A DNA stretch of 33,398 nt, from positions 1 through 33,398 of the forward strand of contig JAAYZQ010000107.1 of the NCBI GenBank assembly GCA_012514775.1, written 5' to 3'. A program made the translations under genes and the position numbers. This document shows positions 5,384 to 14,594 of this stretch, in pieces. The stretch is from Anaerolineaceae bacterium. Lineage in GTDB: Bacteria > Chloroflexota > Anaerolineae > JAAYZQ01. How positions within the stretch are numbered: position 1 is the stretch's first letter; every line of letters starts with the position of its first letter. The notes beneath the pieces are model-generated. The model worked only from the letters and a program-made list of their open reading frames with translations, made no database searches and was not told the DNA's origin.

Positions 5384-7060
5384 ATGACGAACGTAATCCT
5401 TGACGGTGAAAGCCTCAGCATTCACCAGGTGGCCTCCCTGGCCTACGGACCTGAAGAGGGCCGGGACCAGCATGTTACCCTGTCTGACGAGGCGTGGCAA
5501 AAGGTGGCCCGCGCCGAGGAAGCGGTGCAAGGCATCCTGGACCGCGGCGAGGTGGTCTATGGCGTTACGACGGGCTTTGGCGCCTTCAAAGACCGCATCA
5601 TCCCCCTGGACCAGGTGGAGCAATTGCAGCGCAACATCCTGATGAGCCACGCGGTGGGCGTCGGCCCGCTGCTGGACACGGCCACGACCCGGGCCATGAT
5701 GGCCATCCGGGCCAACACGCTGGCCAAGGGACACTCGGGCATCCGCGCCGCGACGCTGCGCCTGCTCCTGGACATGCTCAACCGCGGCGTCTATCCCGCC
5801 GTACCATGCCAGGGCTCCCTGGGCGCCAGCGGAGACCTGGCGCCCCTGGCCCACATGTCGCTGCCCCTCATCGGGCTCGGAGAGGCGTTTTACCGGGGCG
5901 AGCGGATGCCGGCCGCCATGGCCCTGGCCCGCGCCGGGCTGGAGCCGGTCACGCTGGGCGCCAAGGAGGGCCTGGCCCTGACCAACGGCACGACGATGAT
6001 GACCGCCATCGGCGCCCTGACCGCCGTTCAGGCCGAGAACCTGGCCTTTATCGCCGACCTGGCCGGCAGCCTGAGCATGGAGGCGCTGAACGGCACCATC
6101 CGCGCCTTTGACCCCCGCATCCACCAGGCCCGGCCCCACCCCCGCCAGATCGAGTCGGCGGCCATCATCCGCCGGCTGCTGGAGGGCAGCGGCTACCTGC
6201 GCGGCGACGATCCCCGCAACGTGCAGGATGCCTACACCCTGCGCTGCATCCCCCAGGTCCACGGCGCCATCCGCGACGCCATCGTCTATGCCGGCTGGGT
6301 GCTGAACATCGAGCTGAACTCGGCCACCGACAACCCCCTCTTCATGTTCGATGAGGAGAGCGGCGAGGTAACCGTCCTCTCGGGCGGCAACTTTCACGGC
6401 GAGCCGGTGGCCATCGCCATGGACTACCTGAGCCTGGCCCTCACAGAGCTGGGCAACATCTCCGAGCGGCGACTGATGCGCCTGACCGACGAGGCCAGCA
6501 ACCAGGAGACGCTGCCCGCATTCCTGGTGCAGCACGGCGGGCTGAACTCCGGGTTTATGTTAACCCAATACACGGCCGCCTCCCTGGCCTCGGAGAACAA
6601 GGTGCTGGCCCATCCCGCCAGCGCCGATACCATTCCCTCCTCGGCCAACGTGGAGGACCACGTGAGCATGGGCTCCAACGCCGCCCGCCAGGCCCGGCAG
6701 ATCGCCGACAACGTAGAGCGCATCCTGGCCCTGGAGCTGATGGCGGCCGCCCAGGGCATCGACTTTCGCCGCCAGGCCCTGGGCCCCGAAGTCCCCCTGG
6801 GCCGCGGCACGGCGCCGGCCTACCGGCTCATCCGCGAGGAGGTGCCCTTCCTGGAGGAGGACGCCGTCATGTACCCTTACATCGAGGCCGTACGGCACCT
6901 GATCGCCAGCGGCCAGCTCGCCCGGACGGTAGGCGACCTCTCCCCCGACCTCCTGACGCTCCCGACGCCGGACCATCGGGACGGTGCGTCCGCCAGGACA
7001 GGTGCGATCCGGCCAGTTGGGTACTCCTCTGCGAGGGGAGGGGAGTTGCCACGGGCGTAG
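5384..7060 (+). CDS. hutH: Histidine ammonia-lyase with atypical C-terminal tail
   Basis: HutH deaminates L-histidine to urocanate and ammonia, the first step of histidine use, in the cytosol. The self-cyclising A-S-G triad that forms the MIO electrophile is at residues 148-150 (GSLGASGDLAPL). The catalytic tyrosine loop YGVTTGFG starts at Y59, and ELNSATDNPLF, GGNFHGEP and the SSANVEDHVSMG loop are also present. The normal family length is about 500-515 residues; this reading frame has 558. The last 34 residues or so after GDLSPDLL look like translated intergenic repeat (copy A at 6976-7050), so the native stop may have been lost. No hutU, hutI or hutG is present. Tyrosine ammonia-lyase/mutase relatives are possible, but the overall match is to HutH. 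A GGAG site precedes ATG 5384. Confidence 0.9.
   Translation: MTNVILDGESLSIHQVASLAYGPEEGRDQHVTLSDEAWQKVARAEEAVQGILDRGEVVYGVTTGFGAFKDRIIPLDQVEQLQRNILMSHAVGVGPLLDTATTRAMMAIRANTLAKGHSGIRAATLRLLLDMLNRGVYPAVPCQGSLGASGDLAPLAHMSLPLIGLGEAFYRGERMPAAMALARAGLEPVTLGAKEGLALTNGTTMMTAIGALTAVQAENLAFIADLAGSLSMEALNGTIRAFDPRIHQARPHPRQIESAAIIRRLLEGSGYLRGDDPRNVQDAYTLRCIPQVHGAIRDAIVYAGWVLNIELNSATDNPLFMFDEESGEVTVLSGGNFHGEPVAIAMDYLSLALTELGNISERRLMRLTDEASNQETLPAFLVQHGGLNSGFMLTQYTAASLASENKVLAHPASADTIPSSANVEDHVSMGSNAARQARQIADNVERILALELMAAAQGIDFRRQALGPEVPLGRGTAPAYRLIREEVPFLEEDAVMYPYIEAVRHLIASGQLARTVGDLSPDLLTLPTPDHRDGASARTGAIRPVGYSSARGGELPRA
6976..7050 (+). repeat. Imperfect direct repeat, copy A (inside hutH 3' end)
   Basis: It begins TCGGGACGGTGCG and ends GGGGAGTTGCC. 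It shares three blocks with copy B at 7122-7164: TCGGGACGGTGCG, GGACAGGTGC and CTGCGAGGGGAG. Copy A carries about 6-base and 26-base insertions between the blocks. It encodes most of the odd C-terminal tail of HutH. Confidence 0.6.
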
Positions 7061-7121
7061 GCGGCTCTCCCGACCCGGCCCGATCCGGCCCGCCTGCGCT
7101 TGGGCCGCACACCGTCCTGCG

Positions 7122-7164
7122 TCGGGACGGTGCGGGACAGGTGCCTGCGAGGGGAGGAGTTGCC
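7122..7164 (+). repeat. Imperfect direct repeat, copy B
   Basis: This is a shortened copy of 6976-7050, with the same three blocks in the same order. Its left end overlaps a hairpin, ACCGTCC-7-GGACGGT (7111-7131). The string CACCGTCCTGCG at 7110-7121 recurs at 26355-26366 before the alcohol dehydrogenase stop, which suggests a dispersed intergenic element. Confidence 0.5.
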
Positions 7165-7288
7165 CCCAGGAATTCTGAACAGGGCTTGGACGTGGCCCCC
7201 TTGCTCCCGTCAGATCTGGCGGTTGTGGCCTCGATCTGGCGATCCAGGCCGAGCGAATAAGCAGAGTCGGGCTTGCGCCTCGCCATAT

Positions 7289-7361
7289 TCAGAATTGCGG
7301 TCCCGGCCACAGGCATTCTTGACAGCGGTGGCCTTTTGCGTTATCATGCGCGCAATTCTGA
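7289..7361. promoter_or_regulatory. 11-bp inverted repeat flanking the ABC-F promoter
   Basis: TCAGAATTGCG (7289-7299) and its exact complement CGCAATTCTGA (7351-7361) bracket the -35/-10 pair at 7319-7347. A further partial copy, AATTCTGA, is at 7171-7178. Only the right half would be transcribed, so any function is at the DNA level, such as a paired operator. This is inference from symmetry alone. Confidence 0.4.
7319..7347 (+). promoter_or_regulatory. Strong sigma70 promoter of the ABC-F leader
   Basis: A perfect TTGACA (7319-7324) and TATCAT (7342-7347, five of six) are separated by 17 bases. Transcription should start near 7354, ten bases before the leader-ORF ribosome binding site. Confidence 0.85.
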
Positions 7362-7375
7362 CAGGAGGTGAACCG

Positions 7376-7441
7376 ATGACCTACAGCGACAGCGCAACAT
7401 ATCGCGTCTGTAGGCATCGCGTTCCCGGAAGATCTGTCTGA
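7376..7441 (+). CDS. Leader peptide (21 codons) of the ABC-F attenuator
   Basis: This short ORF opens with ATG at 7376, six bases after a perfect AGGAGGTG (7363-7370), and ends with TGA at 7439-7441. The peptide begins MTYSDSATYRVC and ends HRVPGRSV. It lies between a strong promoter and an intrinsic terminator, upstream of an ABC-F gene. That is the layout of leader peptides in which antibiotic-stalled ribosomes change RNA folding, as known for vmlR-, msr- and lmo0919-type ABC-F genes. Codons 15-17 (CGCGTTCCC, 7418-7426) can pair partly with the terminator left arm and loop (CGCGT with ACGCG, CCC with GGG), a possible antiterminator. Translation is strongly suggested by the ribosome binding site; the regulatory role is inferred. 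Confidence 0.72.
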   Translation: MTYSDSATYRVCRHRVPGRSV

Positions 7442-7466
7442 TTCCGTCTGATATCGAGATCGAACC

Positions 7467-7506
7467 AAGCCGTGGGTGCACGCGACGCCCACGGCTTCTT
7501 GTTTGT
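7467..7506 (+). terminator. Intrinsic terminator / attenuator before the ABC-F gene
   Basis: A perfect 10-bp stem AAGCCGTGGG (7467-7476) and CCCACGGCTT (7488-7497) encloses an 11-base loop and is followed by the T-rich tail CTTGTTTGT. It lies 25 bases after the leader-ORF stop and about 80 bases before the ABC-F start, so it must be read through for the gene to be expressed from the promoter at 7319. Confidence 0.8.
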
Positions 7507-7574
7507 GGCGGCCAGCCCTGGAACAAGGCGACGCTGTGGGCGCCTGCTCCCCGGCTCTGAAGGGGAGGGCAACC

Positions 7575-9254
7575 GTGTTAACAGTCAGCAACGTCAGCAA
7601 ATCGTTTGGCGACAACCTGATATTCGAGGATGTCTCGTTCGTGGTCAATGCCGGCGAGCGGGTGGGGCTCATCGGTCCCAACGGCAGCGGCAAGACGACC
7701 CTGCTCAAGATCATCCTGGGCGAAATGGCGCCCGATAGTGGCAGCGCCCGCCTGCTGCGGACCGGGACCCGGGCGGACTACCTGGCCCAGGCGCTGGAGT
7801 ACGCCCCCGACGACACGGTCGGCCGGGTCCTCAAGGCCGCCGTCGCCGGCCTGACCGAGGCCGAGGCGGCCCTGGACGCGGTGGCGGGGCGCATGGCCAC
7901 GGCCCAAGGGACCGTCCTCGAGCAGTTCATGGCCGAGTACGACCGCGCCCTGGAGCAGTTCGAGCGCCTGGGCGGCTACACCGTCCAGGCCCGCTCCGAC
8001 GCCGTTCTGGACGGCCTGGCGCTCCGCGACCTGGACCAGGACACCCCGGTAGAGATCCTGAGCGGCGGCCAGAAGACCCGCCTGGGTCTGGCCCGCCTGC
8101 TCCTGTCGCACCCCGACCTGCTGCTCCTGGACGAGCCCACCAACCACCTGGACATTGACGCCCTGGAGTGGCTGGAGGGCTTCTTGCGGGGCTTTTCCGG
8201 GGCGGTGCTCATCGTATCCCACGACCGGGCCCTCCTGGACCGCACCGCGACCCGCGTCCTGGAGATCGATCCGCTGACCCGCACGCTGGCCGAGTACGCC
8301 GGCAACTACAGCGACTATCTCGAGGCAAAGGAGCGGGAGCGGGAAAAGCAGTGGGCGGCCTACAAGGACCAGCAGGAGTTTGTCGCCCACCTGCAGAGCA
8401 CCATCGCCGCCAGGAAGGGCTACGCGCGCTCCATCGAGCTGGGCACCATCGACTTTGCGCCGCGGGCCATCGCCAAGGGCATCGCCCGCCGGGCAGTGGT
8501 CCAGCAGCGGCGCCTGGAACGCCTCCTGGAGTCGGAGGAGCGGGTGGACAGGCCGCAGCGCTCGTGGCAGATGAAAATAGAGTTCGCCGATGCCCCGCCC
8601 TCGGGCCGCGACGTGCTGTCGCTGGAACGGCTGGCCATGGGGTTCGACAACCGGCCGCTCTTCTCCGGCGTCGACCTGGCCCTCAGCGCCGGGGAGCGCG
8701 TCGCCCTGGTGGGTCCCAACGGCTCGGGCAAGACGACCCTGGCGCGCCTCATCACCGGCGAGATGCAGCCCCAAGCGGGGCGCGTGCGCCTGGGGGCGGG
8801 CGTCAAGCTGGGCTACTATGCCCAGGAGCAAGAGACCCTGGACCCCGAAAGCACGCCCTTCGACCTGGTGCGCCAGGTGGCGGCCATGGATGAAACAGGC
8901 ATCCGGACCTTTCTCCACCAGTTCCTCTTTGCCGGCGACGAGGTCTTTGCCCCGGTGGGCAGCCTTAGCTTTGGCGAGCGGGCACGGCTGGCGCTGGCGC
9001 GCCTGGTGGCCCAGGGCTGCAACTTCTTGCTGCTCGACGAGCCCATCAACCACCTGGACATTCCCTCCCGGAGCCGCTTCGAGCAGGCGCTGGCGGCCTT
9101 CGAGGGGACGGTCCTGGCCATCGTCCACGACCGCTACTTTATCGAGCGCTTTGCCACCGGGCTGTGGTCGGTGGAAGACGGCACGATCCGGGCCTACACG
9201 GGGCTGGACCAGTTGCAGTCGGGGCGGCGGGCACAGCAGGAAGGCCGGGAGTAG
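7575..9254 (+). CDS. ABC-F family ATPase (ribosome-acting, possible antibiotic resistance)
   Basis: This 559-residue protein has two ABC domains and no membrane segment, the ABC-F architecture. These proteins bind the ribosomal E site, and some displace antibiotics. Domain 1: Walker A GPNGSGKT 34-41, LSGGQ 162-166, DEPTNHLD from 186, switch H216. The inter-domain linker (about 250-335) is long, charged and helical, as expected for the P-site tRNA interaction arm. Domain 2: Walker A 380-387, variant signature LSFGE 464-468, DEPINHLD from 488 and H518. Both Walker B glutamates are kept. GTG 7575 is chosen because AGGGGAGGG ends five bases upstream. An earlier in-frame GTG at 7476 lies inside the terminator stem and has no binding site. 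The attenuator upstream favours an inducible protection factor of the Vga/Msr/Lsa kind over a housekeeping Uup/EttA type; the drug specificity cannot be read. Confidence 0.88.
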   Translation: MLTVSNVSKSFGDNLIFEDVSFVVNAGERVGLIGPNGSGKTTLLKIILGEMAPDSGSARLLRTGTRADYLAQALEYAPDDTVGRVLKAAVAGLTEAEAALDAVAGRMATAQGTVLEQFMAEYDRALEQFERLGGYTVQARSDAVLDGLALRDLDQDTPVEILSGGQKTRLGLARLLLSHPDLLLLDEPTNHLDIDALEWLEGFLRGFSGAVLIVSHDRALLDRTATRVLEIDPLTRTLAEYAGNYSDYLEAKEREREKQWAAYKDQQEFVAHLQSTIAARKGYARSIELGTIDFAPRAIAKGIARRAVVQQRRLERLLESEERVDRPQRSWQMKIEFADAPPSGRDVLSLERLAMGFDNRPLFSGVDLALSAGERVALVGPNGSGKTTLARLITGEMQPQAGRVRLGAGVKLGYYAQEQETLDPESTPFDLVRQVAAMDETGIRTFLHQFLFAGDEVFAPVGSLSFGERARLALARLVAQGCNFLLLDEPINHLDIPSRSRFEQALAAFEGTVLAIVHDRYFIERFATGLWSVEDGTIRAYTGLDQLQSGRRAQQEGRE

Positions 9255-9275
9255 GCAGGATGGGGATATTCTGGT

Positions 9276-9316
9276 GGGGCACAGGGGCTGGGCCCGAGCC
9301 TGGCCGCCTGTGCCCC
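9276..9316. terminator. Hairpin between convergent ABC-F and livF genes
   Basis: A perfect 10-bp inverted repeat, GGGGCACAGG (9276-9285) and CCTGTGCCCC (9307-9316), has a GC-rich 21-base loop that can itself pair (GGCT with AGCC). It lies 5 bases beyond the livF stop and 21 bases beyond the ABC-F stop. Neither strand has a following T-run, so any terminator activity would be U-independent. Confidence 0.5.
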
Positions 9317-9321
9317 GCCGG

Positions 9322-10032
<711 letters not shown>

Positions 10033-10058
10033 GTCCCTCTCCCGGTAAAGGCAGGCAG

Positions 10059-10823
10059 CTAGCCGCCGTTGCCCATCAATCGCTCGGCGAGCTTCGGATC
10101 GCCCAGGTAGGCCTCGATGACCTTTGGATTGGATGCCACCTCGGCCGGCGTGCCTTCGGCGATCTGCTGGCCATAGTCCAGCACGATGACCCGATCGGAG
10201 ACGTTCATCAGGGCATGCATCACGTGCTCGATGATCAAGATGGTTACACCGCGCTCGCGGATCTTGAGCACGACCTGGATCATCTCGCCGATCTCGATGC
10301 GGTTCAGGCCGGCCAGCACCTCGTCCAGCAACAACAGGAGGGGGCGGGCAGCCAGGGCCCGGGCCAACTCCAGCCGCTTTTTCTGGGCCACGTTCAGGCT
10401 CGCGGCCAGGGCGTTGCGGCGCTTCTCCAGCCCCACAAAGGCCAGCACCTCATCCGCGATCTCTTGCGCCCTGCCCAGGGAATGCCGCTCGTGGCCAAAG
10501 CAGGCCCCGGCGACGACGTTCTCCAGCACCGTGAGGTCGTTCAGCGGGCGGACGACCTGGTGAGTGCGGGCCAGGCCCAGACGAGCCACGGCGTAGGGCT
10601 GCCAACCGGTGATGGTCCGCCCCCGAAACTGGACCAGCCCCTCTTCCGGCGCATAGACGCCGTTCACGACGTTGAATAGCGTGGTCTTGCCCGCGCCGTT
10701 GGGGCCGATGAGTCCCAGGATCTGTCCCTGGGGCAGGTCGAAGGTGACGTGCGACAGCGCCTGCAGCCCGCCAAAGCGCTTGCAGACGTCCTTTACCTGC
10801 AGGATGTTGGGTGACGCGCTCAT
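10059..10823 (-). CDS. livG: Branched-chain amino acid ABC transporter, ATP-binding protein LivG
   Basis: This 254-residue nucleotide-binding subunit has Walker A GLIGPNGAGKTT, the LivG-typical insertion region GLARTHQVVRPLNDLTVLENV, and Walker B LLLLLDEVLAGLN. The ABC signature is degenerate: LNVAQKKRLELARAL stands where LSYGQQRRLEIARAL is usual, and DEP reads DEV. I have seen similar variants in LivG-like proteins of Gram-positive and Chloroflexota type, so this is probably functional. ATG 10823 overlaps the livM stop by four bases (ATGA), indicating coupled translation. An in-frame start upstream at 11315 lies inside livM and is rejected. Confidence 0.92.
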   Translation of the reverse strand: MSASPNILQVKDVCKRFGGLQALSHVTFDLPQGQILGLIGPNGAGKTTLFNVVNGVYAPEEGLVQFRGRTITGWQPYAVARLGLARTHQVVRPLNDLTVLENVVAGACFGHERHSLGRAQEIADEVLAFVGLEKRRNALAASLNVAQKKRLELARALAARPLLLLLDEVLAGLNRIEIGEMIQVVLKIRERGVTILIIEHVMHALMNVSDRVIVLDYGQQIAEGTPAEVASNPKVIEAYLGDPKLAERLMGNGG

Positions 10824-11788
10824 TCTAGCACCCTCCGCAGCCTCGGAAAGCGCCCCCGCAGCCAGCCGATCAGTCCCGCGGGGACGAACAGGATGATGAT
10901 CAGGAGCAGGAGCCCGGCAAAGGCCAGGTGCAGGTTCTTGAACAGGGGGCTGGTCAAGAGGTAGCCGCGCAGGCGCTCGTAGGCCGCCGAGCCCACCAGG
11001 GGCCCCAGGACCGTCCCCTGCCCGCCCAACATGACCATCACGATGGTCTCGATGGACATCTGCAGGCGAAAGGCGTCTCCGGGCTCCACGTTGCCGTTCT
11101 TGAAAAAGAACAACGCGCCAACGATGCCCGGGAAAAAGGCCGACAACACAAAGGCCCAGGTCTTGGTCCACGGAGTGTGCACGCCCATCACCATGGCCGC
11201 GTCCTCGTCTTCGCGAATGACCATCAGCCCCAGCCCAAAGCGCGAGAACTTGACCAGGTAGCTGACGACCAGGACGAGGAGGGTGAGCCCGAACATGGCG
11301 GCAAAGGTGAGCCACAGGGCGCTGGCCGGGCCGCCATAGGCATCGTAGGTCGAGAAGTTGAGGGACATGCCCGTGGGCCCGCCAAAGGGCGTGAAGCTGT
11401 TGATAAAGGCACGCACCGCCTCATTCACGCCGATGGTGGCCAGGGCAAAGTAGGCGCCCCGCAACCTCAGGACGGCGGCGCCGAGGAGCAGGGCCAGCAG
11501 CCCCGCGGCCGCTCCCCCGGCCAGCGCCGCCCACCACAGTGGCCAGCCGTGCTGGCTCAGGAAGTAGAACCCGACGTATCCTCCCAGGCCGAAAAAGACA
11601 ATGTGCCCGAAGTTCACGTACCCGGTGAAGCCCAGCAGGATGTTGAGGCTGGTGGCCAGGGCCACGTACATGAGCAGAAGAAACATCTCTTCGCGGAGCG
11701 TGGCCGATTGGGTGATCCACACCGCCAGGCCGGCGGCGACGACCAGTGCGAGGGTTAACCAGAAGGCAGGGTATTTCAACGCTTTCAT
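10820..11788 (-). CDS. livM: Branched-chain amino acid ABC transporter, permease LivM
   Basis: This 322-residue inner-membrane permease has about eight to nine hydrophobic helices, beginning with PAFWLTLALVVAAGLAVW. It carries the LivM hallmarks GYVNFGHIVFFGLGGYVG, LRLRGAYFALATIG and the cytoplasmic EAA-like loop with REDEDAAMVMGV. The C-terminal helix contains LLLLIIILFVPAGLIG. It pairs with LivH to form the channel. The start directly abuts the livH stop, and the gene overlaps livG by four bases, so H, M and G are tightly coupled. Confidence 0.92.
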   Translation of the reverse strand: MKALKYPAFWLTLALVVAAGLAVWITQSATLREEMFLLLMYVALATSLNILLGFTGYVNFGHIVFFGLGGYVGFYFLSQHGWPLWWAALAGGAAAGLLALLLGAAVLRLRGAYFALATIGVNEAVRAFINSFTPFGGPTGMSLNFSTYDAYGGPASALWLTFAAMFGLTLLVLVVSYLVKFSRFGLGLMVIREDEDAAMVMGVHTPWTKTWAFVLSAFFPGIVGALFFFKNGNVEPGDAFRLQMSIETIVMVMLGGQGTVLGPLVGSAAYERLRGYLLTSPLFKNLHLAFAGLLLLIIILFVPAGLIGWLRGRFPRLRRVLE

Positions 11789-12646
11789 CTAGCGCTCTCC
11801 AAACAGGCCACTGGGCCGGACCAGCAGAATGAGCACAAAGAGCACAAACTCGATGACCGGCACCCAGTTGACCGGCAAGAAGACGGGGATCAGGCCCTCC
11901 ATGGCCCCCAGGATGAGGCCACCGATCAGCGCCCCGGTCGGGTTGCCCAGCCCGCCCAGGACGCCGATAACAAACCCCTTGGTCTGGTAGCCGGCTCCCG
12001 AGAGGATTGTAAAGGGGAAAAAGGTTGCGATGAGGCCGCCGGCCAGGGCGGCGAGCATCGTGCCGACACCAAAGGCCAGGGCCAGGGTCGACGACGTCGG
12101 CACCCCCATCAGGCTGGCTGCCGCCCTGTTGTTGGCCACGGCCCGGATCGACTTGCCCGGCCGTGTTCTGTAGAGAAAAACATAGAGGCCCGCCGTGGCC
12201 ACCAGGGAGATCAGGGCTGCCACCAGCCGGGTGCCCAGGAGGGTCACCGGGCCAAGCTGCACCCGCCCCATGTCGAAATCCACGGTGCGTGGCGTGGTGG
12301 TAAAGACCGCCGTTCCGGCGCCGATGATGATCATGTTCACAGCAAAGGTGGCCAGCAGAGTCGAGAGGTAGGGCGCGTTGATTACCCGGTGGACCGAAAC
12401 GGCATACACCGCGTACCCGAACAGCAGGCCCAGCAGGACGACGAGCAGGAGGGCCAGGTAGGGATGAAGGTTCAACCGGCTAAAGAGGATAAAGACGACA
12501 AACATGCCCAGGGCCATGGTCGCCCCATGGGCCAGGTTGATCACCTTCATGACGCCCCAGATGAGGGTCAAGCCCATCGCTGCCAGGCCGTACACAAAGC
12601 CGAGCAGCAGTCCATCGCTCAACGAAGCCGTGAGTTGTTCAGCCAT
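11789..12646 (-). CDS. livH: Branched-chain amino acid ABC transporter, permease LivH
   Basis: This 285-residue inner-membrane permease is the LivH partner of LivM. It shows the family signatures GLLLGFVYGLAAMGLTLIWGVM, read in two halves, and INLAHGATMALGMF near the N-terminus. Further markers are RAVANNRAAASLMGV (the cytoplasmic coupling loop) and KGFVIGVLGGLGNPTGALIGG near the C-terminus. About eight transmembrane helices are evident. The start is ATG 12646 with AAAGGATC upstream. It is 104 bases downstream of the binding-protein gene, and that gap contains a strong hairpin. Confidence 0.92.
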   Translation of the reverse strand: MAEQLTASLSDGLLLGFVYGLAAMGLTLIWGVMKVINLAHGATMALGMFVVFILFSRLNLHPYLALLLVVLLGLLFGYAVYAVSVHRVINAPYLSTLLATFAVNMIIIGAGTAVFTTTPRTVDFDMGRVQLGPVTLLGTRLVAALISLVATAGLYVFLYRTRPGKSIRAVANNRAAASLMGVPTSSTLALAFGVGTMLAALAGGLIATFFPFTILSGAGYQTKGFVIGVLGGLGNPTGALIGGLILGAMEGLIPVFLPVNWVPVIEFVLFVLILLVRPSGLFGER

Positions 12647-12683
12647 GCGCGATCCTTTCTGCTCGCAGGCGAGATCCGAACGC

Positions 12684-12722
12684 GGAAGGCTGGAAGGGTC
12701 GCGAGGCCTCTTCCAGCCTTCC
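12684..12722 (-). other. Intercistronic hairpin between binding protein and livH
   Basis: A perfect 13-bp inverted repeat, GGAAGGCTGGAAG (12684-12696) and CTTCCAGCCTTCC (12710-12722), has a 13-base loop whose ends can add two more pairs. There is no U-tract. Hairpins in this place commonly protect the 3' end of the binding-protein message and lower permease expression, which would give the usual binding-protein excess; here that is inferred from position. Confidence 0.6.
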
Positions 12723-12750
12723 TCCCTATTCGGCCATCAGTCCGGCGACG

Positions 12751-14079
12751 CTAGCGATCCAAGGGATAGATGGCATCGGCCGACTTGCCGTCGGCCGGCC
12801 ACACGACCTCCTTGACCAGGTTCCCACCGGCGTCTTTCGTCCACTGGATGTAGACCATTTCGTGGGCCGTCTGCAGCCCATGGTTCTCGGGCGTCGTGTC
12901 GAACTTGACGTGCCCGTAAAAGGTCAGCACGTCCATCGCCTCCAGCGCTGCCCGTACCCCGTCCGGATCGACGGACCCGGCCACCTCGATGGCCTTTTGC
13001 AAGATGAGGCCGGCCGCATAGCCCCCCGCGGCGTGATAGGCCGGCTCTTCGCCATGCTTGGCCTTGTAGGCGGCGACGAAATCGGCGACGCTAGGCCCGT
13101 ACCACTCGATGCCGGCCGCCTGGGCCGATTCCGGGCTGTAGGCGGCCTGCGGCTCCCACTGGCTGGGGCCAATGACCCCCCCCGCGGCGTCGCCGATGTC
13201 GGCGAACTGCAGCTCCGGGGGCGCCACGAGCAAGGCGATGAATTTGGCGGGCACCTGTTTCTCGTACAGTTGCTTGGCAAAGGTGCTGCCGTCGGCAAAG
13301 TGGCCGCCGCCCATGATGGCGTCGGGCCCCAGGCCGCTGATCTTGTTGATAAAGGGCGCAAAGTCGGCCGTGCCGCTGTCATAGCCCTCAAACAACACGA
13401 TCTCGTAGCCCTTGCCCTCGGCATAGGTCTTGGCCGCGTTCACCACGTCGGTCGAGAACTTGTCATTTTCGTACACGAAGGCGATCTTTTTGACTGTGGC
13501 GTCAAGGTCGCCCAGCAGGTCGACGGCGCCGGTCAGGTAGCGGCTGGCCGGCGTGTAGAGCTGAAAGACGGACTTGTAGCCCTTCTGATAGGTCGCGTCG
13601 GAGGCGGCGCCCGTCGTCACCATCACCTGGTTGTACTGCTCGGCAATGACCGCAGCCGCGTCGGTCAACCCGCTGCTATAGGGGCTGATGAGAAAGTTGG
13701 TCTCGTCGTCGTTGATCAGCTTGGTGTAGAGCTGCTGGACGCGCTCCTTGTTGCTCTCGTCGTCGTAGGTCTTGAATGCGAACTTGACCACCGTCCCGTC
13801 GGCCAACTCGATGCCCGTCGCGTTCACCTCTTCCAGCCACAGTTCAAGTCCCCGGGTCTGGCCGGTGGAGGGCACCTCCTGGGCGCCGGTCCTGGACGCG
13901 GTAAAGCCCAGGACGACGACCTGCTCCTGCGCCGCGGGTTCCCCGGCTTGCTCGGGCTCGGCCGGCCCCGCGGCTTGCGTGGGCCCTGCCGGCGGTTCGG
14001 CTGGTGCGGGTGTGGCGCCACAGGCCGCCAGCAAGGTGCCGCACAATGCCAGGATCACGATCCAACCTATGACTTTCAT
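12751..14079 (-). CDS. livK: Branched-chain amino acid-type ABC transporter substrate-binding lipoprotein
   Basis: This 442-residue extracytoplasmic binding protein belongs to the Leu/Ile/Val-binding (Peripla_BP_6) family. It has a lipoprotein signal with lipobox LLAAC (lipidated cysteine about C20), then a low-complexity Ala/Pro/Glu linker. The mature domain reads VVLGFTASRTGAQEVPSTGQ, followed by WLEEVNATGI, then YSSGLTDAAAVIAEQYNQV and VTTGAASD, which are ligand-pocket positions in this family. The true ligand could be an amino acid, amide or other small solute. ATG 14079 has GAGGAGGAAAG immediately upstream, so the longer in-frame start at 14220 is rejected. The gene is 137 bases downstream of the receiver gene; a small GACCGGC/GCCGGTC hairpin (14161-14183) lies in that gap. 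Confidence 0.9.
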   Translation of the reverse strand: MKVIGWIVILALCGTLLAACGATPAPAEPPAGPTQAAGPAEPEQAGEPAAQEQVVVLGFTASRTGAQEVPSTGQTRGLELWLEEVNATGIELADGTVVKFAFKTYDDESNKERVQQLYTKLINDDETNFLISPYSSGLTDAAAVIAEQYNQVMVTTGAASDATYQKGYKSVFQLYTPASRYLTGAVDLLGDLDATVKKIAFVYENDKFSTDVVNAAKTYAEGKGYEIVLFEGYDSGTADFAPFINKISGLGPDAIMGGGHFADGSTFAKQLYEKQVPAKFIALLVAPPELQFADIGDAAGGVIGPSQWEPQAAYSPESAQAAGIEWYGPSVADFVAAYKAKHGEEPAYHAAGGYAAGLILQKAIEVAGSVDPDGVRAALEAMDVLTFYGHVKFDTTPENHGLQTAHEMVYIQWTKDAGGNLVKEVVWPADGKSADAIYPLDR

Positions 14080-14216
14080 CTTTCCTCCTCTGGATAGGTT
14101 TCTCGCTCGAAAGACGGCCGGTTCGTCGATGGTTCCCCCCTCCTTCCTGTTCTGCCCCCTGACCGGCCGGGCACGCGCCGGTCGTCCTCTCCGCACGACG
14201 GGGCCCGAACTGCCCC

Positions 14217-14594
14217 TCATTCCACCGGCTGGGCCGGGCGACGGATGGCTGCCAGAAGCTCTTCCACGGGGCCGCCTTTGAGCAGATACCCGTCAGCCCC
14301 GGCATCGGCGGCGGCGGCCAGATAGCGGTCGTACACCGAGAGCAAGATGAGGCGCGTCGCCGGCCGCTGCCCCTTGATCCGCCGGGCCGACTCCAGGCCC
14401 CCGGCATCGGGATCGATGAGCACGACGTCGGGCGCCAGGGCCTCGGCCAGGGCGACGGCTTCCGACCCGCTGCCCGAGGTCATCACCGCGGCATAGTATT
14501 CGCTCAGGACCATCTGCAATCCCTCGCGAAAGACCACGTCATCGTCCACAATCAGAATCTGGTGCGCCTCCACAGGCCTCCCCCGGCTGCCCAC
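14217..14594 (-). CDS. Stand-alone response-regulator receiver domain protein
   Basis: This is a CheY-like receiver of up to 125 residues with no output domain. The acidic pocket is IVDDD (about 15-19), the phosphoacceptor is D61 (VVLID), the switch serine is S86 (LILLS) and the conserved lysine is K106 (GYLLK). The loop after D61 is PDAGGLES, lacking the usual M-P, but all catalytic positions are kept. It is the first gene downstream of a promoter at 14615-14643 and leads into the liv transport operon, so it may be co-transcribed with it. The nearest kinase is encoded at 15501-18236. The start is uncertain: GTG 14594, or GTG 14573, which has GGGGGAGG only three bases upstream. Confidence 0.78.
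   Translation of the reverse strand: MGSRGRPVEAHQILIVDDDVVFREGLQMVLSEYYAAVMTSGSGSEAVALAEALAPDVVLIDPDAGGLESARRIKGQRPATRLILLSVYDRYLAAAADAGADGYLLKGGPVEELLAAIRRPAQPVE

Follow-up and report, generated by a model that had tools for sequence, protein, structure and literature searches.

Ribosome-sensing transcription attenuation of ABC-F genes follows the same logic in the leaders of vmlR (PMC9226507), cplR (PMC10201436), lmrC (PMC8546547), and are5sc and tiaA (PMC12421871), and the parts of these papers on which we draw call attenuation of this kind common in Firmicutes (PMC8546547) and describe the vmlR leader as induced by initiation-stage inhibitors (PMC9226507). As far as those parts extend, such control has so far been described for Bacillota and Actinomycetota, largely for pathogens and antibiotic producers. 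No such leader in Chloroflexi, Chloroflexota, or Anaerolineae is described in the titles or abstract openings of the top-ranked open-access PMC literature; a paper on leader peptides (PMC4833913) names Chloroflexi once in the part available, without ABC genes. Here, we analyze a stretch of 33,398 nucleotides (nt) from an Anaerolineaceae bacterium (contig JAAYZQ010000107.1), referred to below as the window, and the leader that lies in it upstream of an ABC-F ATPase gene. We consider it probable, at about three chances in four, that this leader is a ribosome-sensing transcription attenuator of the ABC-F gene.

A sequence-only reading of the window had proposed an attenuator in which a ribosome stalled early on a short upstream open reading frame (uORF) allows read-through into the ABC-F gene. 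Our analysis supports this proposal, in that the Shine-Dalgarno (SD) sequence, uORF, and terminator recur in relatives and two alternative helices covary, and it adds the likely position of sensing, the first codons. A uORF with a ribosome-binding site is present upstream of the ABC-F gene, and an intrinsic terminator is present between the two. The elements are as follows.

7319..7347, plus strand: promoter of the sigma-70 type, TTGACA-17-TATCAT, 28 nt upstream of the uORF start
7363..7370, plus strand: SD of the uORF, AGGAGGTG, from the sequence; a GGAG lies close before the uORF start in all 21 leaders of the family described below
7376..7441, plus strand: leader uORF of 21 codons, MTYSDSATYRVCRHRVPGRSV and stop TGA, an open reading frame with ATG at 7376
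7367..7386, plus strand: predicted anti-antiterminator helix, 5' strand (uORF SD, start codon, and codons 2 to 4), from the fold of 7360-7430 and a swap test
7408..7426, plus strand: predicted anti-antiterminator helix, 3' strand (codons 11 to 17), from the fold of 7360-7430
7413..7428, plus strand: predicted antiterminator, leader strand, pairing with 7470-7489 in a transcript that has its uORF start masked and runs to 7490; swap test
7467..7497, plus strand: intrinsic terminator hairpin, AAGCCGTGGGTGCACGCGACGCCCACGGCTT, of which 7470-7489 doubles as the distal strand of the antiterminator
7498..7505, plus strand: T-rich tail, CTTGTTTG, from the sequence
7562..7569, plus strand: SD of the ABC-F gene, GGGGAGGG, from the sequence
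7575..9254, plus strand: ABC-F ATPase gene, 559 amino acids, two ABC domains, start GTG at 7575, from its match to NF000355

The promoter, the SD with its 21-codon uORF, and the separate binding site and GTG of the ABC-F gene had all been claimed in the sequence-only reading and hold at these positions. The promoter is the sole promoter-like site found in 6500-9800 (shuffled sequences gave a mean of 0.3). A terminator with a T-rich tail had been claimed as well and stands, with 12 pairs (8 of them G-C) in place of the 10 proposed and with a tail that is modest. The uORF stop and the terminator are 25 nt apart, and 77 nt separate the terminator from the ABC-F start; most relatives' ABC-F matches begin with ATG at the place of the window's GTG. 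The 157-nt leader folds at a z score of -3.95. Rfam gave no match at the gathering score in the window, and its matches in 20 other loci were one tRNA and one molybdenum riboswitch, both outside the leaders. Because there is a single promoter, and because terminators of relatives can end within 35 nt of the gene, the uORF and the ABC-F gene are likely to share one transcript. Two other modes of control were rejected. One is that a ribosome on the uORF stop blocks the terminator directly, given the stop at 7441 and the terminator at 7467; the other is amino-acid attenuation, given a uORF without a run of a single codon and the lack of a biosynthetic gene.

We compared the window with the closest ABC-F loci in one-per-species genomes (the best 80 of 514 candidates, L001 to L080), whose ABC-F proteins are 49 to 65% identical to that of the window. 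All 80 carry Chloroflexota labels, in agreement with the Chloroflexota-like genome proposed earlier; 33 of the labels say just Chloroflexi or Chloroflexota bacterium, and most of the other 47 name Anaerolineae or a group within it. A profile of 15 other leaders, obtained by deleting the window row from an alignment that had been made with the window included, matched window positions 7371-7497 at E = 3.8e-8, with the next match in the 33-kb window at E = 0.27; the window leader is therefore not a chance arrangement. We refer to this family as type A. The set used here holds 21 leaders, the window and 20 others (16 aligned, plus L028, L020, L122, L164, and L166), and leaves out L160, which lies at a contig end and nearly duplicates L018, as well as L026 and L053, whose matches to our covariance model R1 were weaker (35.5 and 28.2 bits). 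Seventeen of 81 sources matched R1 at 52 bits or more, 16 of them being the training set and the 17th, L028, a near copy of one member. Outside the training set, R1 matched L164 (77.1 bits) and L122 (32.3 bits) directly upstream of ABC-F and L020 (32.5 bits) upstream of a run of a HAD-like gene (assigned by reading), a GNAT gene, and ABC-F. In the whole genomes G001 to G004, all four in the training set, the ABC-F leader scored 84 to 98 bits and everything else at most 34. A phylum-wide scan with the leader model found matches at E ≤ 0.001 in 9 of 400 genomes, just one of them strong, and scans within single orders found 13 of 48 genomes in one and 3 of 3 in another. A strong type A leader at L166 1501-1642 (61.7 bits with R1) has no ABC-F gene in the available stretch and is followed by short tandem repeats; it is perhaps a remnant.

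The majority layout consists of an SD, cAGGGATG as the uORF start, GGGC-n-GCATCCCTG about 40 nt further on, and then a terminator of the form GCCGTGGG(T/A)GC...GCCCCACGGC. A promoter that matches the consensus at 10 or more of 12 bases lies 28 to 77 nt upstream of the uORF in 19 of the 21 leaders, a count made without a chance control, and was not found upstream of the uORF in L005 and L012. The sequence-only reading had named a conserved short open reading frame and terminator in orthologues as its check, and orthologues lacking them as the result that would speak against it; SD, uORF, and terminator recur across the 21 leaders, and the contrary outcome did not occur.

The strongest alternative helix of the window leader, helix 1, was absent from the earlier reading. 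It pairs the uORF SD and start (7367-7386) with codons 11 to 17 (7408-7426), the second segment of the leader, and the fold of 7360-7430 has an energy of -29.7 kcal/mol. Its strands are mostly AGGGATG/CATCCCT, AGGAATG/CATTCCT in L166, and GAACCGATG/CATCG-CGTTC in the window, where, by reading, both bases depart from the family consensus in three pairs. Since the uORF region aligns poorly and RNAalifold on a MAFFT alignment recovered just the terminator, we tested covariation by comparing the duplex energies of each leader's own strands with those of swapped strands. Swap tests used 20 members (without L028, a near copy of L017) and then 16, after thinning of close relatives (without L018, L068, L032, and L122); z-score tests and the simulation below used 18. 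Relative to shuffled leaders, the z score of helix 1 was negative in 17 of 18 members (mean -1.84), and the own-versus-swapped comparison gave p = 0.0002 with 20 members, p = 0.0023 with 16, and p = 0.023 in the 8 members that depart from AGGGATG.

Helix 2, the antiterminator, joins the second segment of the leader, the same one as in helix 1, to the apex of the terminator. The complementarity of this segment had a negative z score in all 18 members (mean -2.0), and own strands differed from swapped ones at p = 0.006 (20 members) and p = 0.0077 (16 members), with a modest effect (means of -17.3 and -15.9 kcal/mol, respectively). In the window, in a transcript that reaches 7490 and has its uORF start masked, 7413-7428 (codons 13 to 18) pairs with 7470-7489, a stretch of the terminator that takes in its left arm, its loop, and some of its right arm. 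Pairing of codons 15 to 17 with the left arm and loop had been suggested earlier; the pairing is borne out, and its extent is larger than was suggested. When a ribosome footprint was simulated on the window leader, the expected number of antiterminator pairs was 0.09 for the free RNA; it was 7.1 when the ribosome stood at codon 1 and 7.6 at codon 4, but 0.09 at codon 8 and 0.11 at codon 15. Across the family, antiterminator pairing rose by more than 0.5 in 14 of 18 members and fell by that much in none; its level with the ribosome in place (8.75) was just above the best of 40 shuffle sets (8.74).

Several observations weigh against an attenuator that works in this way. Helix 1 is weak in two members (L032 and L012) and, by z score, missing in a third (L122), and the swap tests count sequences as independent although some are related. 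In just 1 of 18 leaders does the own terminator apex rank as the best partner. Masking the start changes little in 4 of 18 members and lifts pairing in shuffles too (mean rise of 3.77 observed versus 2.70, standard deviation 0.68); among shuffles of the window leader, 12% equal or exceed its rise. After transcription of the right arm, the minimum-energy fold contains the terminator, even with a ribosome placed. The tail of the window terminator has no strong T run, and poor tails are also found in L012, L017, and L028. Lastly, EttA, YbiT, and YheS are the solved structures closest in sequence to the ABC-F protein, and resistance ABC-Fs rank lower. Because the shuffle control shows most of the simulated effect to be generic, we discount the simulation and do not rest the claim on it, and because the full-length fold keeps the terminator, the switch, if real, would be kinetic. 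The support for the switch is covariation and conservation, not energies.

Sequence comparison further indicates that the conserved feature of these leaders is the RNA and not the peptide. The uORFs of the 21 leaders range from 6 to 28 codons and vary in peptide and frame. By reading, the second segment is read in a different frame in L007 and L009, and the uORF stops upstream of it in L017, L028, and L033. A +X+ motif conserved at a fixed peptide position was not found; the motif occurs in just 3 of the 21 peptides, and the window has Arg-His-Arg at codons 13 to 15. Three leaders (L008, L032, and L122) share DVGR-x-AP, which overlaps the GGGCG segment.

Terminators upstream of ABC-F genes were counted across 114 loci: 81 (the window and L001 to L080) and 33 of 60 further regions (60 of 64 listed) that remained after removal of copies with an 80-nt probe. 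Ten loci with less than 250 nt upstream were left out. Within 250 nt upstream of the ABC-F match, a same-strand terminator was present in 57 of the 104 loci counted and an opposite-strand one in 5, compared with 17 of 509 random windows. Control genes in the window and L001 to L080 had a terminator upstream in 17 of 219 cases, and in 11 of 120 where the upstream sequence was mostly intergenic. The detector misses leaders with a wrongly set ABC-F start or a poor tail (L009, L012, L017, L028, and L122 were counted as without) and counts some doubtful cases, such as L080, L137, and L158. In 22 of the 57 loci, no more than 35 nt separate the end of the terminator from the start of the ABC-F match; the matches in L019, L045, and L079 start before the first ATG. 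A rigid, bulge-free detector of uORF, hairpin, and terminator was dropped, its 17 matches among 81 loci including many with a wrong uORF. Directly upstream of ABC-F, a HAD-like hydrolase or GNAT acetyltransferase gene lies in L020, L027, L029, L031, L035, L049, L120, L126, L142, and L150; Pfam was run on four of these, giving HAD for L027 and GNAT for L020, L049, and L126, and the rest were assigned by resemblance only. The GNATs of L049 and L126, of about 450 amino acids, match Acetyltransf_9, and we take them to be Eis-like. A leader or terminator precedes the HAD-like or GNAT gene or run in L020, L029, L035, L120, and L126.

These data suggest the following working model. RNA synthesis would start at the promoter at 7319-7347. 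With no ribosome on the uORF, 7367-7386 would pair with 7408-7426, a pairing that we accept because sequence and covariation support the helices, and the terminator at 7467-7497 would be left free to stop transcription. A ribosome reading the whole uORF would itself cover codons 11 to 17, again with termination as the outcome. A ribosome halted on about the first four codons would mask the start strand and free codons 13 to 18, which could then pair, kinetically, with the emerging left arm and loop of the terminator, so that polymerase continues into the ABC-F gene. Because sensing would rest on position and not on the peptide, induction probably comes from inhibitors that arrest the ribosome during initiation or the first bonds (pleuromutilin-, lincosamide-, or streptogramin A-like), and the ABC-F protein would then dislodge the inhibitor, as inferred from VmlR, CplR, and ARE5. 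Drug sensing by the window leader is thus proposed by analogy.

An unlikely alternative, which nonetheless merits attention, is that the leader senses slow or failed translation in general, as in amino-acid shortage or ribosome damage, and that the ABC-F protein is a housekeeping translation factor. A sensor at the start codon would indeed answer any initiation-stage block, the nearest solved structures named above fit such a factor, and none of the models for named resistance groups (Msr, Vga, Lsa, Sal, OptrA, CplR, and TlrC/CarA/OleB) was passed by the protein, the best score being 357.7 bits (TlrC/CarA/OleB/SrmB) against a cut-off of 800. The protein does, however, exceed the cut-off of the NCBIfam model for ribosomal protection-like ABC-F (NF000355; 437.9 bits, cut-off 380), and its inter-domain linker is about 24 residues longer than that of EttA in PDB 7msc over the aligned stretch of one pairwise alignment, the direction reported for ARE1 to ARE5 in the part of PMC6723617 available, which also lists Chloroflexi under ARE4 proteins. 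By reading, the uORF also lacks the run of one codon that might betray amino-acid shortage as the signal. The ABC-F gene is a candidate for the ribosome-protection, resistance type.

We regard as very unlikely that the terminator ends an independent short transcript of a small peptide or RNA gene and that the ABC-F gene has its own promoter downstream of 7497. The 77 nt between terminator and gene in the window are in keeping with this arrangement, and a hairpin with a T tail is by itself no proof of read-through; however, 6500-9800 contains no second promoter-like site, the 22 terminators that end within 35 nt of the ABC-F match leave little room for one, and in five loci (listed above) the leader or terminator stands before the GNAT or HAD-like gene or run that precedes ABC-F. 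Slightly more doubtful still is a peptide-specific arrest, in which a macrolide stalls the ribosome at Arg-His-Arg, as in the ErmDL and MefAL leaders. The window uORF does carry this motif, and +X+ is a known macrolide arrest motif (PMC10314930, in the part consulted), but its rarity among the 21 leaders argues against such an arrest, and a ribosome at that site would cover codons 11 to 17 and block the antiterminator, as in the simulation at codon 15. We favor a ribosome-sensing attenuator governed by the position of the ribosome on the first codons.

Relatives of the window carry other leader architectures upstream of the same gene. Type B leaders have uORFs of 7 or 8 codons (MTEKIAA, MTNTITV, MLNPVAV, and others), and immediately after the uORF comes a strand whose pairing partner lies further downstream, in the order uORF, conserved RNA domain, terminator, ABC-F; they occur at L016 795-1007, L021 1295-1492, L030 245-440, L107 97-320, L114 149-382, and L118 2326-2529, and also in L025, L103, L011, and L043. 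Their domain contains a TCCCGC/GCGGGA helix whose two strands both show changes, with insertions that match. In this P1 helix, 94.2% of cells are paired across 9 sequences, and both partners have changed in 3 of its 7 pairs. Over the whole structure, 5 doubly changed pairs were observed, with slid controls at -1 and +2 reaching 4; the covariation score was 0.125 versus higher slid controls of 0.157 and 0.155, in a pair count in which the terminator-helix columns were misplaced. The five type B loci searched had no Rfam match, and the type B leader is a candidate new RNA family. Long insertions interrupt it in L025, L043, and L103; those of L043 and L103 contain a repeated hairpin-like unit (CTCGGTCGG...CCGGCCTGAGC), in several copies in L043.

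Type C leaders have uORFs of 3 to 6 codons whose end is complementary to the 8 to 12 nt just upstream of the ABC-F start, as in GTGAACTTA/TAAGTTCAC, GGAATGAACTTA/TAAGTTCATTCC, and ACAGGTTGC/GCAACCTGT, which show compensatory changes. At least 8 such pairs are present in 17 of 104 loci; by reading, the uORF end serves as the partner in 11 of these, and in 2 more the partner sits near the uORF SD. Type C loci are L037, L039, L044, L045, L048, L055, L074, L078, L079, L146, and L147. In L037, L048, L055, L078, and L146, the detector found no terminator within 250 nt upstream of ABC-F, which suggests purely translational attenuation. L045, a type C locus with a mini-uORF leader, is from the cultured strain Bellilinea caldifistulae GOMI-1. 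By reading, two further groups (L042, L047, L051, L062, L069, L072, L077, and L152; L040, L041, L052, L053, L063, and L135) have uORFs of 7 to 9 codons and then distinctive terminators, of the GCGCCGCA and AGCCGCGGGCG types; the uORFs of L042 and L062 have an SD region that is complementary to the region of the ABC-F start. Weak leader-model matches were obtained at 13 loci (L085 to L089 and L091 to L098; 26.7 to 36.8 bits). Three lie upstream of second ABC-F genes that are 31 to 35% identical (L086, L088, and L089), four upstream of ABC transporter ATPases (L085 and L093 to L095; DrrA was the best model, below its cut-off, in the two scanned), one upstream of an ABC exporter (L091, by reading), and five upstream of other or unclear genes (L087, L092, and L096 to L098). 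They possibly point to a wider set of attenuator-controlled genes.

For the broader proposal, we would give even odds: that ribosome-sensing leaders of several unrelated RNA architectures (a long uORF with a start-codon anti-antiterminator, a 7- to 8-codon uORF with a covarying domain, and a 3- to 6-codon uORF sequestering the ABC-F start), which share only the placement of the uORF ribosome over the switch, are common upstream of one orthologous ABC-F gene in Anaerolineae and related Chloroflexota, and that similar leaders may also lie upstream of second ABC-F genes, of DrrA-like ABC transporters, and of GNAT-ABC-F operons, forming an antibiotic response network under attenuator control that is convergent with those of Bacillota and Actinomycetota. 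That such leaders recur in Chloroflexota, most of them uncultured, suggests an old or repeatedly invented drug-inducible ribosome protection in ordinary environmental bacteria, and their variety upstream of one gene offers a natural experiment in the origin of such switches. Our reading predicts that induction is set by where the ribosome stops and not by the leader peptide; because the relative at L045, with its different leader type, is a cultured strain, the leader class is directly testable. Around the window leader itself, a histidine ammonia-lyase gene (5384-7060) lies upstream of the ABC-F gene on the same strand, and a branched-chain amino acid ABC transporter cluster (9322-14220, minus strand; Liv-type by the best NCBIfam matches, which are below cut-off) is convergent with it.

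Among described systems, as far as the cited parts of the reports go, the vmlR leader of Bacillus subtilis resembles that of the window in having a uORF start within an anti-antiterminator stem, a competing antiterminator and intrinsic terminator, and an ABC-F gene; it differs in phylum, in its 3-codon uORF (MIN), and in a fourth hairpin that sequesters the SD, whereas the window has 21 codons and no SD sequestration was seen, and the two are likened by layout, not by sequence homology (PMC9226507). The cplR leader of Clostridioides difficile (uORF MR[I/M]), with its uORF-bearing 5' hairpin, terminator, and both transcription and translation attenuation, is of much the same kind as the leaders with mini-uORFs in other Chloroflexota; it differs from the window in phylum, sequence, and uORF length, and its terminator hairpin sequesters the gene's SD, whereas the two do not overlap in the window (PMC10201436). 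In Streptomyces are5sc and tiaA, the uORF ribosome-binding sites overlap anti-terminator hairpins and lincosamide, streptogramin A, and pleuromutilin drugs cause stalling at the start codon, whereas in lmrC the key uORF partly overlaps the terminator and its loss gives constitutive expression; the window, in another phylum, has 25 nt between uORF and terminator (PMC8546547, PMC12421871). The msrD leader with MsrDL and the macrolide +X+ leaders likewise place a uORF and terminator upstream of an ABC-F gene, but the MsrDL arrest depends on the peptide, whereas the family of the window leader does not conserve the peptide, and in the window a ribosome at the uORF stop would be too distant to block the terminator directly (PMC10314930). 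Most likely, the window leader follows the vmlR, cplR, and are5 logic of Bacillota and Actinomycetota, here in a third phylum, a kinship that we draw by mechanism and that makes no claim of descent.

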